A stretch of 56,046 nt of DNA from Parasporobacterium sp. (GTDB lineage: Bacteria > Bacillota > Clostridia > Lachnospirales > Lachnospiraceae): the NCBI GenBank assembly GCA_017510065.1, contig JAFWOB010000220.1, positions 1 through 56,046 of the forward strand, in the 5' to 3' direction. Positions 37,188 to 43,261 of this stretch are shown piece after piece (within the stretch, counting starts at the first letter, position 1; every line of letters begins with the position of its first letter). A program made the position numbers and the translations under genes. The notes under the pieces are model-generated. The model worked only from the letters and a program-made list of their open reading frames with translations, made no database searches and was not told where the DNA came from.

Positions 37188-37924
37188 CATTTGACCCTAA
37201 TGAAGGAACCGGGATCAGTATACGGCAGGATCTCAAAGACTGTCAGTACATTGTCTTCCACAGTGAAGCGGATATCAAAGTCTGCAAAGTGAAGGCCGTA
37301 GACATATCCGGGCTGCTTTTCGTAGGAACCTCTGGGATCCTGCTGCAGGATCTGAAGAACGGCGCTGCGTTTTTCCGGTGGGATCCTTTCCAGGAGATGT
37401 TCCGGGAAAATGACCTGAATAGATTTTGCCTCACTGACGGCAAAGCCGCCGGAAGCTTCCGGATGGCAGTCTGCATAGGGAACATAAGGTTTGATGTCAT
37501 AGATCGGGGTGCCGTCCAGAAGATCGGCTCCGCCTACTGTCAGCACGGGAGCCTCTTCACAGGCAAGATCGATGTCAAGAAGCCTTACACAGGAAAGTCC
37601 CAGGGAATTGGGACGGTAAGGAGATCTGGTGGCAAAGACACCTGCCCGGATCTTCCCGCCCAGCCTGGGAGGCGTAACCAGAGGAGACCATCGGACAGGA
37701 TCTTCTGACATGTCGATGCCGGTTTTGGAAAATCCCCAGATCAGCCAGAGATGGCTGAAAACGTCCATCCCTTTGACCGCTTCCTTTTTCCGGAAGGCTT
37801 CTTCAAATACGATCCTGGCCGTCAGATCCGGTGCCAGTCCGGCCTGTCTGGGAATACCGAAACGTTCCCGGAGATCTGACCGGATATGAGCAATGGGCCT
37901 TATCGTATAAGCAGGGTTATGCAT
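37187..37924 (-). CDS. trmO: tRNA (t6A37)-N6-methyltransferase TrmO
   Basis: TrmO (TsaA/YaeB family) methylates the t6A base at position 37 of tRNA-Thr. The product is 245 residues. The conserved beta-barrel core includes RPIAHIRSDLRERFGIPRQ, VFSHLWLIWGFS, and the hallmark GVFATRSPYRPNSLGLSCVR, followed by DLLDGTPIYDIKPYVPYAD. ATG at 37924 has AGGAGG 7 bases upstream, preferred over an earlier in-frame start. Its start overlaps the end of the upstream acyltransferase gene by 8 bp. Confidence 0.95.
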   Translation of the reverse strand: MHNPAYTIRPIAHIRSDLRERFGIPRQAGLAPDLTARIVFEEAFRKKEAVKGMDVFSHLWLIWGFSKTGIDMSEDPVRWSPLVTPPRLGGKIRAGVFATRSPYRPNSLGLSCVRLLDIDLACEEAPVLTVGGADLLDGTPIYDIKPYVPYADCHPEASGGFAVSEAKSIQVIFPEHLLERIPPEKRSAVLQILQQDPRGSYEKQPGYVYGLHFADFDIRFTVEDNVLTVFEILPYTDPGSFIRVK

Positions 37925-39122
37925 GATCGTTCCTCCTGTTTTTTCCAAAACGTCTGATCCTGCTTTTTCCCAGATCGATCAGTTTCGCAAGTCCCAGAGA
38001 GACTGCCATTCCGGCTAGAAAATAAAGGACCAGGACACGGGGATTATCCTGTGAACAGCGGTAGAAAAACAGGTCGTCAAAAAAACGTGCCCGATCAAAA
38101 TCAGTCAGGAACGCAGCGGGCGTTCCCAGCGAATAGATCAGATAAAACAGGCAGTTCAGCAGGAAGAAACCGAAGATATGGAAAGACATGATGTATTTGG
38201 TATTTTTCCCGGTGAAAACAAGCAGTCTGCTTTTGTGGGGGATCGAAGCGATCAGGCGGGAGATCCGGAGCCACAGCAGTATACCGGTGGTCCCGCAGCA
38301 GTAGTACAGAAAACCGATCTTTCCGAAGCTGCTGAGGTCAAACAGGCCGGGAGACAGACGGGAGTTCCTGGAATACAGGATCAAGAGGAACTGCACGATC
38401 CCAAGGATTAGAAAATACCAGACTCCGGGCAATGTATCCAGACGTTCCAGATAATGCCGGTAAAGGAAACCGACCTGCAGGAAAAAGAGCATCACAACGG
38501 AGCGGAGCAGCACAACCACTGTTACACCCGGTTCATAAACGGAACGGATGTAAAAGGCTGCCGATGACATGGCCAGGATCAGGATGAGAAACAATACTTC
38601 TTTCAGAAGAGTATCTTTAAACAGACGATCCAGAACTGCCCGCAGCAGATAATAATATACTTCTGCCAGAAATAGAGCCGGCAGGAACCAGGTGGCAAAG
38701 GAAAATGTCGTTGGCTGGGTTTCTGCCAGGGGCATCAGCAGATAGTCTTTAATCGTGTAGTTGATCCTGGAAAAACCAAATCCTGCGATCAGGAAATCAA
38801 ACAGGATAAACAATCCGTTGATCACATAGAAGGGAAGGAGAAGGCTCTTTAATTTCTTCCCCAGAAATCTTCCGAAAGATTTGAAAAACAAATCTTTTTC
38901 AGGCTGACGGAAAAAATAACCGCTGACAAACAAAAAGAGGGGCATATGAAAGGAATAATAGGGAAACCATCCGTAAAATGTTCCGGAAGCAGATAAATCG
39001 TTTCGCAGATGTCCGAGCAGGACAAAACAGATTCCGATCACCGAGAGGATGCACATCTGGTAATGGAAAGAGTCGTGTGTTTCTGCATTGTTTATTTGTT
39101 TTGTCTGCATTTTATCTCTCAT
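37917..39122 (-). CDS. Acyltransferase 3 family membrane protein
   Basis: This is an integral membrane O-acyltransferase of the type that acetylates or acylates cell-surface polymers. The product is about 401 residues with roughly ten hydrophobic segments. The family hallmark is near the N-terminus: ICFVLLGHLRNDL (catalytic-type His) and SFHMPLFLFVSGYFF. The start is uncertain: ATG 39122 is 16 bases from its AAAGGAGG, longer than usual, and ATG 39110 is also in frame. It is divergent from the teichoic-acid-like pair at 39237, so a role in the same polymer is plausible but inferred. Confidence 0.88.
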   Translation of the reverse strand: MRDKMQTKQINNAETHDSFHYQMCILSVIGICFVLLGHLRNDLSASGTFYGWFPYYSFHMPLFLFVSGYFFRQPEKDLFFKSFGRFLGKKLKSLLLPFYVINGLFILFDFLIAGFGFSRINYTIKDYLLMPLAETQPTTFSFATWFLPALFLAEVYYYLLRAVLDRLFKDTLLKEVLFLILILAMSSAAFYIRSVYEPGVTVVVLLRSVVMLFFLQVGFLYRHYLERLDTLPGVWYFLILGIVQFLLILYSRNSRLSPGLFDLSSFGKIGFLYYCCGTTGILLWLRISRLIASIPHKSRLLVFTGKNTKYIMSFHIFGFFLLNCLFYLIYSLGTPAAFLTDFDRARFFDDLFFYRCSQDNPRVLVLYFLAGMAVSLGLAKLIDLGKSRIRRFGKNRRNDHA

Positions 39123-39149: not shown

Positions 39150-39178
39150 ATCATAACAAATAACAATTTGAACTTCAA
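39150..39178 (-). promoter_or_regulatory. Promoter of the acyltransferase-trmO unit
   Basis: On the minus strand TTGAAG (+ 39173-39178) and TATGAT (+ 39150-39155) are 17 bp apart. Its -35 shares a base with the -35 of the divergent plus-strand promoter. Confidence 0.6.
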
Positions 39179-39195
39179 TGAAGGTATGTTATAAT
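39168..39195 (+). promoter_or_regulatory. Promoter of the glycerophosphotransferase-like operon
   Basis: TTGAAC at 39168-39173 and an extended -10, TGT-TATAAT with TATAAT at 39190-39195, are 16 bp apart; the start codon is 41 bp further on. Confidence 0.7.
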
Positions 39196-39236: not shown

Positions 39237-40523
39237 ATGAATTATCTGGCTTATATAGATCCGGGTACAGGATCCATGATGTTCACGATCATAATCGGCA
39301 TTGTGACAACCCTGTTTTTTGCGCTCCGAGGACTGATGATCAGGTTTAAATTCGGTTTTCATAAAGGAAGCGCCAAAGGCAGCAAAAAGAAACTTCCAAT
39401 CGTGATCTTTACGGACAGCAAGAGATATTGGAATGTGTTTAAACCGATCTGCGATGAGATGGAGAGGCGGGGAATCGACGGGGAATACTGGACCGCTTCT
39501 CCGGATGATCCGGCCCTGAAGGAGCAGTATCAGCATATCAGATGCCAGTTTATCGGGGAAGGCAACCGGGCGTTCGCTAAGCTGAATGTTATGAACGCCC
39601 ATATCTGTCTGGCAACTACCCCGGGTCTTGATGTGATCCAATGGAAACGATCCAAGAATACCGAGTATTATGCCCATACATCCCATGCTCTTGATGACGG
39701 GACCATGTATCGTATGTTTGCCCTTGATTTCTATGACTGCCTTCTGGTATCCGGGGAGAATATGGTGGAACCGGTCCGGGAACTGGAGAGGATCCGGGAA
39801 CTTCCTGCAAAGGATATTGTCGTGACCGGCGTGACATACATGGATGAACTGAAGTTCCGCTGGGACGCCCTGCAGAAAGAAAAGGAAGAAAAGGCAAAAG
39901 AACGCCTGGAACAGGGACTTCCGGCGGAAGAACCCCATGAAACCACGATCCTGTGTGCTCCTTCCTGGGGACCGAACAGCATTTTCAACCGTTATGGCGA
40001 AAAATTCCTGAAAGCGCTTGTGGATACCGGCTATCACATTGTGATCCGTCCCCATCCCCAGACCCCGATCTCTGATCCGGAACTGCTGAAAGATCTGCAG
40101 AAGAAATTCCCGGCAAATGATCAGGTCGAATGGAATTATGATAATGACAACTTTGAGGTCCTTAGCAGATCCGATCTTCTGATCTCGGATTTTTCCGGTA
40201 TCACATGGGATTTCTGCTATGTGTTTGACCGTCCGCATATTTATGCGGATACACATTTTGAACTGGAACTTTTGGATGCCGACTGGCTGGACCGTACGCC
40301 GTGGATCCTGGAAACCCTGGGAAAGATCGGAAGACAGCTCCGGGAAGAAGATTTTCCGCATATGAAACAGATCATTGAAGATGTTCTGTCAGATGAAAGC
40401 TATAAAAGGCAGCGCGAGATCACCCGTGATGAGAGCTGGGCGTATCGTGGAGAGGCTACTGTCCGGACCGTCGATTTTCTGGAGCAGAAGCTGAAGGAAC
40501 TTCAAGAGAGCGGGGAGGCATAA
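39237..40523 (+). CDS. CDP-glycerol glycerophosphotransferase (TagB/TagF-like) protein
   Basis: Proteins of this family transfer glycerol phosphate from CDP-glycerol to teichoic-acid-type polymers at the inner face of the membrane. The product is 428 residues. An N-terminal membrane helix (FTIIIGIVTTLFFALRGLMI) anchors it. The catalytic GT-B-like domain shows YYAHTSHALDDGTMYRMFAL, IVIRPHPQTPISDPELL and the family signature SDLLISDFSGITWDFCYVFD. The donor cannot be proven from the sequence. Start at ATG 39237 after TTGGAGAA. The fusion protein gene begins 8 bp after its stop, so they form an operon. Confidence 0.88.
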   Translation: MNYLAYIDPGTGSMMFTIIIGIVTTLFFALRGLMIRFKFGFHKGSAKGSKKKLPIVIFTDSKRYWNVFKPICDEMERRGIDGEYWTASPDDPALKEQYQHIRCQFIGEGNRAFAKLNVMNAHICLATTPGLDVIQWKRSKNTEYYAHTSHALDDGTMYRMFALDFYDCLLVSGENMVEPVRELERIRELPAKDIVVTGVTYMDELKFRWDALQKEKEEKAKERLEQGLPAEEPHETTILCAPSWGPNSIFNRYGEKFLKALVDTGYHIVIRPHPQTPISDPELLKDLQKKFPANDQVEWNYDNDNFEVLSRSDLLISDFSGITWDFCYVFDRPHIYADTHFELELLDADWLDRTPWILETLGKIGRQLREEDFPHMKQIIEDVLSDESYKRQREITRDESWAYRGEATVRTVDFLEQKLKELQESGEA

Positions 40524-40531
40524 GGCGAAAT

Positions 40532-43261
40532 ATGATCGGAGATATTTTATACAACCTTTTTATCATGCCGCTGGAACTGATCTTTGAAGTCATTTTCTGG
40601 TTCCTGCGTTCCTATCCTGCCCTGGCGATCGTTGCCATCAGCATTGTCATGAATTTCCTGGCTCTGCCGCTGTACAAACGGGCGGATGCGATCCATGAAG
40701 AAGAGCGGGACAAAGTGGCTTCCATGGCGGACCGGGTAGCACGGATCAAAAAAGCTTTCAAGGGTGACGAACGTTATATGGTGCTGACCACTTATTATAA
40801 AGAGCAGCACTATAAGCCGATCTATGCCCTTAGAAGCACATTTTCCCTACTGCTGCAGGTACCTTTCTTTATGGCAGCCTATAATTTCCTGTCGAGGCCG
40901 GGTCTGCTGGACGGGCATTCCCTGTGGATCCTGAGTGATCTGGGAAAACCTGATCAGCTGCTGCAGTTCGGAACGTTTTCTGTCAATCTGCTTCCCATTA
41001 TCATGACATTGATCAACGTGGTGTCGTCCTATATCTATCTGCGGGGTTTCTCGCTCAGAGATAAGATCCAGACTTACGGCATCGCGGTTGTATTCCTGGT
41101 GCTTCTGTACAACAGTCCTTCGGGCCTTGTATTTTACTGGACCTTGAACCAGGTGTTCTCCGTATTGAAGAACATCTTCATGAAGCTGGTAAAGAGCAAA
41201 AAGGCGCACAATATTTTCTTTTCCGTCCTTGGCGCAGTACTCCTGATCGTTCTTATCTGTACGGGCCTTATGACGACGCCAAAGAAAGCGGTACTGGGCG
41301 TGGTACTGTTCCTGATCTGCCAGATCCCGCTTATTTCCAGCCTGGTAATGAGCCGTCATCCCGAGTCCCTGGAACACGTAAAACCTCTGAAGACCTCCTG
41401 CTTTGTGCTGGGCTGTGTTTTTATGTCCGTTCTGATGGGAATTGTCATTCCGATGTCGGTGATCAGCTCTTCGCCTACGGAATTTGCCACAGCAGCCACC
41501 AGTCCTTCGGTGCTGGTGATCAATAATTTCTGCATTTGTGCAGGGTTCTTTATCATCTGGCTTGGGATCTTCTATTATATGTCCAGTCCGTTCGTGAGGA
41601 ATCTTTTCACCTATGCGATCCTGGTCATTTCCGGAGTCTCCATTCTGGATTTCATGGTGTTTTCCAAGAAACTGGGCGTCATGTCTACTTATCTGGTGTA
41701 TGATGTGTTCCCGAGTTTCACCCGGGGTGAGAAGTGGATCAATCTTGTCTGCGTGATCGCCCTTGCTGCTGCACTGGTCCTGGCAATGAAATACCTGGGC
41801 CGGTTTGTGAACTACCTGTATCTGATCCTGATCCTGGGAAGCGTCGTTCTGGCAGGATTCAGTATCGTCAGCACCGCACAGACCCTTCGGGAAGCCCGCA
41901 GCAGTGAGCAGAAGTTCATGCAGCAGACCGAAGAGACGGACAGTGAGCGGGTCAGCAATAAACTGGAGAAGATCATTCCGCTGAGCAAAAAGGGTCACAA
42001 TGTGGTGATCCTGATGATGGACCGGGCGATCAGCGGTTATCTTCCTTATATTTTTAACGAAAAACCGGAGCTGGAAGAGAAGTTTGCGGGATTTACCTAT
42101 TATCCCAATATGCTGAGTTTCGGAGGACATACCAACCTGGGAGTCCCTGCTATTTTCGGCGGATATGAATATACACCGGCCAGTATGAATGCCAGACGGG
42201 AATTGTCTTTGCAGGAAAAACATGATGAGGCGCTTCTTCTGATGCCGACCCTGTTTTCTGAAGAAGGTTATGAGGTTACGGTCTGCGATCCTGCTTATGC
42301 GGGCTATTCTTTCTATCCGCCGGATCTTTCCATTTACGACGGTCTGGATCACGTGACTGCCCGCATTACATACGGAGCTTATTCCGACGAGCTGATGGCA
42401 GTCTTCAGCCCGACGATCCAGAAAACGCAGAGAAGGAACTTCTTCTTTTACAGCCTGATGAAATGTGTCCCGGTGCTGCTGCATAATACAGTCTATAACG
42501 GAGGAAACTATTACGCGGCAGAAACGGGCAATGTACTTTCCTGCAGTGATGAGTTCCTGTATTCCTATTCGGTGCTTTATGAGCTTCCGGAATTGACGGA
42601 TGTTCGGGATGAGGAGTTTGATACCCTTATGATGATGGATAATGATACTACCCATTCCAATACGATCCTGCAGACACCGGAATATGAACCTGTGGCAAAC
42701 CTTACCAGCAATATGTATGATCATCCCGAAAGGTTTACCCTGAACGGTGTGACGGTCGTCATGGATACCGAAACCCAGATCGGCCATTATCACTGTAATG
42801 TGGCAGGACTTCTCAAACTCGGGGATTGGATGGATTTCCTGAGGGAAAACGGTGTCTATGACAATACCAGGATCATCATAGTTTCCGATCATGGAAACGG
42901 ACTTGGACAGTTTGAAGATCTCCTGATCGATGATACATGGGATGCGCAGTGGCTGAATTCACTGCTGATGTACAAGGATTTCGATGAGCATGACGCGTTC
43001 AGGGTTTCAGATGAGTTTATGATGACAGCGGATGTGCCGATGCTGGCGATGAAAGGACTGATCAAGGATATGACCAATCCGTTTACCGGCAATCAGATTA
43101 CGGAAGATGTCAATAAGGAAGAACAGCCGGTGACTTCTTCCCACCACTGGAACATTAACAAGTATCATGGCAATACTTATGACACCTCCGATGGAGACTG
43201 GTGGATCGTGCATGGAAATGTTCATGACAGGAACTGCTGGGAGAAAGTAACAATAGACTGA
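40532..43261 (+). CDS. YidC/Oxa1-like domain fused to sulfatase/phosphotransferase-like ectodomain
   Basis: The product is 909 residues with three parts. Residues 1-225 follow the YidC/Oxa1 insertase fold: a first helix ending NFLALPLYKRAD, a charged cytoplasmic hairpin, then LRSTFSLLLQVPFFMAAY, LWILSDLGKPD and the signature SGLVFYWTLNQVFSVLKN. The groove Arg usual two residues before this LPL region is replaced by Asn41. Residues 225-460 add about seven membrane helices. Residues 485-909 form an alkaline-phosphatase-superfamily ectodomain, with metal-site Asp497 in NVVILMMDR, probable nucleophile Thr534 in GGHTNLGVPAIFGG and Asp786-His787 in IIIVSDHGNG. This resembles LtaS/EptA-type transferases. 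The gene follows a glycerophosphotransferase-like gene by 8 bp. Confidence 0.85.
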   Translation: MIGDILYNLFIMPLELIFEVIFWFLRSYPALAIVAISIVMNFLALPLYKRADAIHEEERDKVASMADRVARIKKAFKGDERYMVLTTYYKEQHYKPIYALRSTFSLLLQVPFFMAAYNFLSRPGLLDGHSLWILSDLGKPDQLLQFGTFSVNLLPIIMTLINVVSSYIYLRGFSLRDKIQTYGIAVVFLVLLYNSPSGLVFYWTLNQVFSVLKNIFMKLVKSKKAHNIFFSVLGAVLLIVLICTGLMTTPKKAVLGVVLFLICQIPLISSLVMSRHPESLEHVKPLKTSCFVLGCVFMSVLMGIVIPMSVISSSPTEFATAATSPSVLVINNFCICAGFFIIWLGIFYYMSSPFVRNLFTYAILVISGVSILDFMVFSKKLGVMSTYLVYDVFPSFTRGEKWINLVCVIALAAALVLAMKYLGRFVNYLYLILILGSVVLAGFSIVSTAQTLREARSSEQKFMQQTEETDSERVSNKLEKIIPLSKKGHNVVILMMDRAISGYLPYIFNEKPELEEKFAGFTYYPNMLSFGGHTNLGVPAIFGGYEYTPASMNARRELSLQEKHDEALLLMPTLFSEEGYEVTVCDPAYAGYSFYPPDLSIYDGLDHVTARITYGAYSDELMAVFSPTIQKTQRRNFFFYSLMKCVPVLLHNTVYNGGNYYAAETGNVLSCSDEFLYSYSVLYELPELTDVRDEEFDTLMMMDNDTTHSNTILQTPEYEPVANLTSNMYDHPERFTLNGVTVVMDTETQIGHYHCNVAGLLKLGDWMDFLRENGVYDNTRIIIVSDHGNGLGQFEDLLIDDTWDAQWLNSLLMYKDFDEHDAFRVSDEFMMTADVPMLAMKGLIKDMTNPFTGNQITEDVNKEEQPVTSSHHWNINKYHGNTYDTSDGDWWIVHGNVHDRNCWEKVTID

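Follow-up and report, generated by a model that had tools for sequence, protein, structure and literature searches.

Several described systems resemble parts of a gene at positions 40532..43261 (+) of a 56,046-nucleotide contig from Parasporobacterium sp. (GenBank assembly GCA_017510065.1, contig JAFWOB010000220.1), the whole of which was analysed and is referred to as the window. The gene encodes a YidC-type domain fused to an LtaS-like unit, and it adjoins a gene for a TagF-like protein. Like the second part of this fusion, LtaS and LtaP combine a five-helix membrane part with an ectodomain that has a catalytic threonine, acid-Asp-His metal ligands and a phosphate-binding histidine, as reported in PMC4192460. 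In Listeria LtaS, phospho-Thr307 is bound by His422 and with a metal whose ligands are Glu263, Asp481 and His482 (PMC4192460). GacH, a glycerophosphate transferase of the group A carbohydrate, has a membrane part (residues 1-395) and an extracellular catalytic domain (residues 444-822) and uses phosphatidylglycerol (PMC12282279). EptA/MCR-type phosphoethanolamine transferases and PbgA/YejM carry an ectodomain of the same superfamily on a membrane anchor. YejM is not known to transfer headgroups. On the cytosolic side, the TagB/TagF cytidine diphosphate (CDP)-glycerol glycerophosphotransferases share the PF04464 domain with the partner protein, and the lic1 phosphocholine and Ppm/PntC phosphonate tailoring systems share supply genes with the neighbourhood of its relatives (pathway logic in PMC6697681). 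YidC, Oxa1 and Get1, the insertases, scramble phospholipids in vitro, an activity whose relevance in the cell its authors could not show (PMC10491306).

It is proposed here, with a probability of roughly 50%, that the fusion and its TagF-like partner form the core of a trans-membrane headgroup relay. The component families are known; their joining, a second layout in which the YidC-type domain is fused to the TagF-like domain, and a helix bearing a YIDP motif were not found described. A full-text literature search, with subscription papers mostly outside it, returned no description of YidC with a sulfatase domain in a fusion, with CDP-glycerol and choline kinase, or with LicD and lipoteichoic acid; a looser search listed three papers, none of them on the subject to judge from the titles, and the use of a YidC fold in a headgroup machine was likewise not found. 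A preliminary description of this DNA, made from the sequence alone, mentioned neither the YIDP helix nor the neighbouring phosphocholine and phosphonate genes nor the second architecture.

Anatomy of the fusion protein

The preliminary description had read the gene as a single 909-residue protein joining a YidC-type fold to a sulfatase/LtaS/EptA-like ectodomain. This is borne out: the open reading frame (ORF) is uninterrupted, and it matches both PF02096 (60KD_IMP; residues 31-218, 73.5 bits against a cut-off of 35) and PF00884 (Sulfatase; 35 bits against a cut-off of 25). The YidC and LtaS-like profile matches partition the chain, which thus consists of a YidC-type domain (residues 5-220; 40544..41191, +), two linking helices seen in hydropathy and in the AlphaFold2 model (residues 223-274; 41198..41353, +), and an LtaS-like unit. 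The latter has a membrane part (residues 288-469; 41393..41938, +) and an extracellular domain of the alkaline phosphatase superfamily (residues 482-909; 41975..43258, +), supported by PF00884, Foldseek and profile searches. Residues 291-837, helices included, match eight separate LtaS-like proteins (hhalign probability 99.55, E 2.2e-23), so that the ectodomain, together with the five preceding helices, forms one LtaS-like unit that elsewhere is a separate protein.

The AlphaFold2 model, built with a 92-sequence alignment, has a mean predicted local distance difference test score (pLDDT) of 90.7 and a predicted TM-score (pTM) of 0.84. Hydropathy gives 12 membrane helices or helix peaks, seven of them after residue 220, in agreement with the "about seven" further helices of the preliminary description; the model makes residues 398-469 a single unbroken helix, and the number is therefore best given as six or seven. 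A YidC domain ends on the inner side of the membrane. An odd number of helices after it places the ectodomain outside.

For the YidC-type domain itself, residues 1-225 align with 15 canonical YidC proteins of the same order (hhalign probability 97.0, E 8.2e-11, 203 columns), and the fusion-family profile matches YidC chains in the PDB (E 5.9e-12). The refuting condition named in the preliminary description, a structure prediction that lacks a YidC fold in residues 1-225, is thus countered only indirectly, by these profile matches and by a helix pattern and pLDDT of that region in the model that fit YidC, but the best 50 of 515 whole-model Foldseek matches include no YidC chain. The signature SGLVFYWTLNQVFSVLKN occupies residues 197-214. 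The domain differs from the YidC/Oxa1 insertases, whose fold it shares by profile, in falling under the cut-off of NCBIfam TIGR03592 (yidC_oxa1_cterm; 73.4 bits against 84.3), in being joined to an enzyme and in having its own tree branch. In the YidC-domain tree, which is unrooted and comes with a long-branch warning, three groups are each set off by a branch (100/100, 88/86 and 100/100). A canonical YidC is also present in each of the 16 genomes searched.

The groove arginine of YidC (R72 in Bh YidC2) is replaced by Asn41 in the window fusion and by Asn in 89, Gln in two and Ser in one of 92 fusions. Canonical YidC proteins of this order also often lack it (Arg in five, Lys in three, Tyr in four and Asn in three of 15; L001 and L150-L163). 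A missing arginine as the mark of a non-insertase was accordingly rejected, since Asn (3/15) and Tyr (4/15) also occur in the canonical proteins.

An origin of the fusion in misassembly or in a frameshift artefact, as might be feared in a draft assembly of 242 contigs, has a negligible probability. One scan found relatives encoded in at least 573 stretches of named genomes, and 76 loci were kept. Across these loci, 97 ORFs of 840 residues or more were called, and removal of near-identical sequences left 91 distinct full-length fusions from many assemblies, which with that of the window make up the 92-sequence alignment. Four of the 76 loci carry NZ_ accessions, and a pTM of 0.84 argues in the same direction. 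Within the genome of the window, PF02096 has three matches: the canonical YidC (contig C48), the window fusion, and a second fusion on another contig (C148) that is 47% identical and lies behind its own TagF-like gene. The possibility of two genes joined by error, raised in the preliminary description, is thereby refuted.

The ectodomain and its active site

The metal site (Asp497, Asp786-His787) and nucleophile (Thr534) that had been predicted for the ectodomain fall at fully conserved positions, their roles remaining predicted ones. Asp497 (42020..42022, +), a putative metal ligand, Thr534 (42131..42133, +), the putative nucleophile, His708 (42653..42655, +), at the phosphate-binding position, and Asp786-His787 (42887..42892, +), further putative metal ligands, are each identical in 92/92 aligned fusions. 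Thr534, His708, Asp786 and His787 are also invariant in a set of 29 ectodomains that includes five separate relatives and one ectodomain-only paralogue. Such a paralogue, of 424-425 residues, is encoded in two relatives of the same genus, where its gene overlaps the end of the fusion gene by 4 bp (L045:7402-8676, L046:10206-11483).

Compared with the LtaS active site, the same residues occur in the same order along the chain, with Asp497 replacing the Glu; the match is one of motif order and profile, not of superposition. In addition to this replacement, the fusion differs from LtaS and LtaP in its YidC domain and its TagF-like pair partner, and no LtaS equivalog model occurs among its NCBIfam matches up to E 1. 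Among the best 50 of 515 matches of the whole model in the PDB, Foldseek gives PbgA/YejM (E 2.5e-8), MCR-1 (1.9e-7), a phosphonate monoester hydrolase (4.5e-7), LtaP (1.4e-6) and LtaS (2.5e-6). The YejM, MCR-1, LtaP and LtaS matches have a probability of 1.00, and their TM-scores, normalised by the 909-residue query, are low (0.20-0.27). Profile matches around the threonine region are weak, both to the EptA/MCR/YejM group (E 0.15 in one search) and in the PDB (best E 0.02). The EptA/MCR/YejM proteins lack a YidC domain, and none is reported for GacH in the available part of PMC12282279; the latter is likened to the fusion by description, not by sequence, in having membrane and extracellular catalytic parts and in taking its headgroup phosphate from a phospholipid.

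The TagF-like partner and the YIDP helix

The partner (39237..40523, +) is a protein of 428 residues with an N-terminal membrane helix and a PF04464 match (37.7 bits against a cut-off of 22.1), probably a cytosolic phosphotransferase of the CDP-alcohol type. Its gene ends 8 bp before the fusion gene, a spacing already recorded in the preliminary description, and the pairing now proves to be conserved across genomes. A TagF-like gene is adjacent to the fusion gene in 75 of 89 loci with a called fusion ORF, upstream in 67 and downstream in eight, or in 72/86 once three repeated contigs are removed; it is non-adjacent within the locus in two and unseen in 12, several of which are short contigs. 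Among 245 genomes sampled from the order of the window, five have the fusion, and exactly these five have a member of the close TagF-like subfamily (>600 bits). The distances of fusion and partner are strongly correlated in a mirror-tree comparison (r 0.85 for 75 pairs; best of 1000 shuffles, 0.16), a statistic that ignores genome kinship. Tandem arrays of at least four fusion genes, accompanied by one TagF-like gene or by two, also occur (L056, L062).

Although the partner is above the PF04464 cut-off, as the TagB/TagF enzymes are, it differs from them in belonging to a separate clade with the YidC-TagF proteins described below and in carrying the YIDP helix. A 100/100 branch separates the TagF domains of both architectures from 12 classical PF04464 proteins encoded in related genomes, with a long-branch warning. 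The YIDPGTG motif (residues 6-12; 39252..39272, +) stands at the start of the helix, and Y[ILV]DPGTG is found near the N-terminus in 80/80 TagF-like partners. A YIDP motif near the start was seen in 0/726 other ORFs of the named loci.

A second arrangement of the same modules

In a second architecture, found in related genomes, a YidC-type domain and the TagF-like domain share one protein, and the LtaS-like protein stands by itself. Weaker TagF-like matches in the 245-genome sample sit in frames of 625-724 residues; 16 genomes have them, and in the 12 loci that were fetched there is an N-terminal YidC-type domain. PF02096 and PF04464 are both above cut-off in 5/5 proteins tested, and PF02096 was found in the YidC-TagF gene in 10/10 genomes searched. 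An LtaS-like protein above the PF00884 cut-off lies beside the YidC-TagF gene in six of the 12 loci (L136-L139, L142, L149); in L134 it is under the cut-off, L135 has no match, and L133, L140, L141 and L148 were not resolved in this count. Both architectures co-occur in two genomes (G035 and G167). A 1113-residue protein with an acyltransferase domain (PF01757) and a PF00884 sulfatase-type domain adjoins one YidC-TagF gene (L142:2275-5613, -).

The Y[IL]DP motif is present here as well: in 11 of the 12 loci a mini membrane protein carries it, and in the remaining one (L139) the LtaS-like protein begins with it. In many of the mini proteins a signal-like stretch ending in A precedes YIDPS and basic residues follow the helix, from which its topology reads as N-out, C-in. 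The four modules (YidC-type, LtaS-like, TagF-like and YIDP helix) thus swap between fusions yet travel together. The preliminary description had regarded the YidC fold as a membrane platform; it does belong to the system, but because it also occurs fused to the TagF-like domain it is better seen as a swappable module than as a platform for the ectodomain only. A single origin for the YidC domains of the two architectures was considered and rejected as a claim, as one origin and two recruitments both fit the tree.

Headgroup supply genes

Genes of the LicA, LicC, phosphonate or LicD type occur in the fetched flank of 32/88 first-architecture loci. The neighbour models behind these counts were built from clusters at these same loci, and the counts stand without a random-window baseline; genome-wide, there are 56 choline-kinase matches in 245 genomes. 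Because the LicA/LicCA model also catches LicC-type proteins, the kinase was recounted alone and found in 22/88 first-architecture and 4/12 second-architecture loci. LicD-type genes, detected with a model from only four sequences, are present in 3/88 and 0/12 loci, respectively. An EamA transporter resembling LicB is added in ten first-architecture loci of one cluster (cluster 4), and a BCCT transporter is found in others. In one second-architecture locus (L138), phosphoenolpyruvate mutase, phosphonopyruvate decarboxylase and PhnW-AepZ, all above NCBIfam cut-offs, are encoded beside the YidC-TagF gene, a YIDP mini protein and an LtaS-like protein.

The closest relative among the matches listed (63%; L049) has the same gene order, with a LicC-like gene and an ATP-binding cassette (ABC) transporter directly behind the fusion. 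The best NCBIfam matches of this transporter are the 2-aminoethylphosphonate (AEP) models phnS2, PhnT2 and PhnU2, all under cut-off. In the genome of the window, LicC/LicA-type genes are located on contig C148, about 15 kb from the second fusion and in a polysaccharide cluster, and on contig C31; there is one LicD. Choline kinase is present in all five fusion genomes of the 245-genome sample, compared with 46/245 overall (P 1.9e-4), and in five of the 11 fusion genomes of a second sample of 98 relatives; the genome of the window and G035 belong to both samples. Choline is thus not obligatory, and choline as the fixed headgroup, which 5/5 in one sample but 5/11 in the other do not bear out, was rejected.

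Several unusual supply proteins occur at these loci. Choline kinase and LicC-like genes are found with genes for a BCCT transporter and for trimethylamine-methyltransferase (MTTB)-type and URO-D-type proteins beside the fusion (L054:12102-18727, L057). A protein of about 590 residues fuses helix-turn-helix, LicC-type and LicA-type domains (L038:7512-9284, L130:14899-16674), and this three-domain fusion is therefore likely to be a self-regulated choline-activation enzyme. A 604-residue protein combines a nucleotidyltransferase with a CobD-like aminotransferase-fold domain (L136:491-2305) and may make another cytidine monophosphate (CMP)-activated amine headgroup.

A proposed headgroup relay and its alternatives

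The analysis demonstrates how the fusion protein is divided into domains, that its active site and its pairing with the TagF-like gene are conserved, that four modules occur in two arrangements, and that genes for phosphocholine or phosphonate supply are frequent neighbours. We infer the chemistry of the relay at every step. In the first step, the cytosolic TagF-like domain, anchored by the N-out YIDP helix, would load phosphocholine, 2-aminoethylphosphonate or a similar headgroup, activated with CMP or CDP, onto a membrane lipid. Both CDP-choline and CMP-AEP are cytosolic products (PMC6697681), and in Treponema denticola phosphatidylcholine is made from CDP-choline and diacylglycerol (PMC8590670). 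Since three second-architecture loci (L136, L138, L149) have supply genes beside all three of the YidC-TagF, mini-protein and LtaS-like genes and no LicD by the model, the TagF-like domain would be the natural user of the activated headgroup. The supply genes are those of lic1 and Ppm/PntC tailoring, for which the available part of PMC6697681 names LicD-like transferases and glycosyltransferases and no YidC, sulfatase or glycerophosphotransferase.

If a headgroup is attached to a lipid on the inner side of the membrane and used on the outer side, a route across is required, and YidC, Oxa1 and Get1 do scramble phospholipids in vitro (PMC10491306). In the second step, the YidC-type domain may grip the YIDP helix in its client groove and so link the enzyme in the cytosol with the one outside; this polar groove may also let the loaded lipid cross, or position it. 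In the third step, to judge from the active site, the ectodomain would take the headgroup phosphate on Thr534, with metal at Asp497, Asp786 and His787, and as an LtaS/EptA-type enzyme would hand the headgroup to a surface polymer or glycolipid; LtaS and GacH, of the same superfamily, take headgroup phosphate from a phospholipid (PMC4192460, PMC12282279). The preliminary description had suggested that the fusion transfers or flips phosphate-containing groups onto a surface polymer; a role in moving such groups is supported, and its chemistry is here only a proposal. A bolder version is put forward tentatively, as possible rather than probable: an Oxa1/YidC fold would form the core, within the membrane, of a machine that exports something other than protein; with the YIDP helix of the unfused partner permanently held in its client groove, the fold would couple an inner CMP-headgroup transferase to an outer LtaS-type transferase, so that lipid-borne phosphocholine or phosphonate passes outward, and the two layouts would be the same assembly solved twice.

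Several observations weigh against the relay. The use of CDP-choline or CMP-AEP by the TagF-like enzyme is conjectural, and PF04464 enzymes are known for CDP-glycerol or CDP-ribitol. No headgroup gene was detected in the flank of 56/88 loci, some on short contigs; none is adjacent to the window's own pair or found before the next gene; and some loci carry LicD, the usual transferase. In the 98-relative sample, choline kinase in five of 11 fusion genomes compares with 20/87 of the others (Fisher P 0.11). One genome (G017) has three fusions without an adjoining TagF-like gene, though two YIDP-TagF genes lie elsewhere in it. Docking of the YIDP helix on YidC is hinted at by the pattern of fusion only, because the carrier of the helix is never the YidC-fused part, or the helix stands alone. 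Finally, sulfatases and phosphonate monoester hydrolases are also among the matches of the ectodomain profile.

It is possible, if doubtful, that these loci instead encode a system of the teichoic acid type, in which a CDP-alditol is the substrate from which the TagF-like enzyme builds glycerol- or ribitol-phosphate units, phosphatidylglycerol supplies the glycerophosphate that the ectodomain adds, as with LtaS or GacH, and the lic and phosphonate genes serve only to decorate the polymer by way of LicD. The PF04464 family takes its name from CDP-glycerol enzymes, the Foldseek matches include LtaS and LtaP, GacH combines membrane and extracellular catalytic parts with the use of phosphatidylglycerol (PMC12282279), and in one locus (L036) LicD genes and a gene for a CTP_transf_like protein lie close to the pair. 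However, no TagD-type glycerol-3-phosphate cytidylyltransferase (TIGR01518) was found at E 0.001 in the genome of the window, which is 90% complete and could make CDP-glycerol with other enzymes; the TagF-like subfamily branches away from the 12 classical PF04464 proteins, and LicD-type genes, by the four-sequence model, are rare at the loci of both architectures.

A reading of the YidC domain as a dedicated insertase for the N-out YIDP helix of the partner, fused to an otherwise ordinary LtaS-like enzyme, is improbable. Short N-out single-span proteins are a type of YidC client, and the YIDP proteins resemble them; one mini protein even matches PF05356 (inovirus coat) weakly, under cut-off (E 0.016). 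A specialised YidC copy is conceivable because a canonical YidC is also present in each genome searched. Against this, a helper for a single partner needs no fusion to a catalytic domain in two different ways, and the YIDP helix stays separate even where the TagF-like domain is YidC-fused. Still less probable is a hydrolase on the secreted side, whether sulfatase or phosphodiesterase, with a trimming role on a polymer or lipid of the surface. This would suit the PF00884 and phosphonate monoester hydrolase matches, but the formylglycine-sulfatase motif C-x-[PA]-x-R has no match in the 909 residues, Thr is at the nucleophile position in every aligned fusion, the ectodomain is always anchored in a large membrane part, and the fusion is paired with a biosynthetic gene.

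On the relay reading, the insertase fold appears to have been recruited in many gut bacteria by a machine of two genes whose probable task is to carry small charged groups, phosphocholine for example, from the cell interior to a polymer or lipid of the surface. Annotation probably labels these genes as insertases or sulfatases, so that the system would go unnoticed. If the relay exists, it would be a new route by which gut Clostridia, Negativicutes and Coriobacteriia display host-like phosphocholine or phosphonates, and a YidC fold within a headgroup-transfer system would be a place to ask whether insertase scrambling matters in cells.

Distribution and other features of the locus

By record taxonomy, the 76 kept loci comprise 71 from Bacillota, four from Actinomycetota and one from Spirochaetota, and 70 of them are from Clostridia. 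Fusion carriers include Mediterraneibacter agrestimuris, Clostridium punense, Schwartzia succinivorans and Butyrivibrio sp. Two loci were dropped as having no fusion ORF called (L060, L064) and three as repeats (L034, L036 and L038, of L049, L050 and L059); a few further loci overlap on one contig.

In the window, the sequence GGGGAGG (40512..40518, +), within the end of the TagF-like gene and 5' of the fusion ATG, resembles a ribosome-binding site. Just 5' of the pair is a promoter-like site, TTGAAC-16-TATAAT (39168..39195, +), a match to consensus only (10/12) with TG ahead of the second hexamer; 11 such sites were found in the region, compared with a mean of 6.7 in shuffles. A gene encoding a PF01757 protein (37917-39122, -) adjoins the pair.

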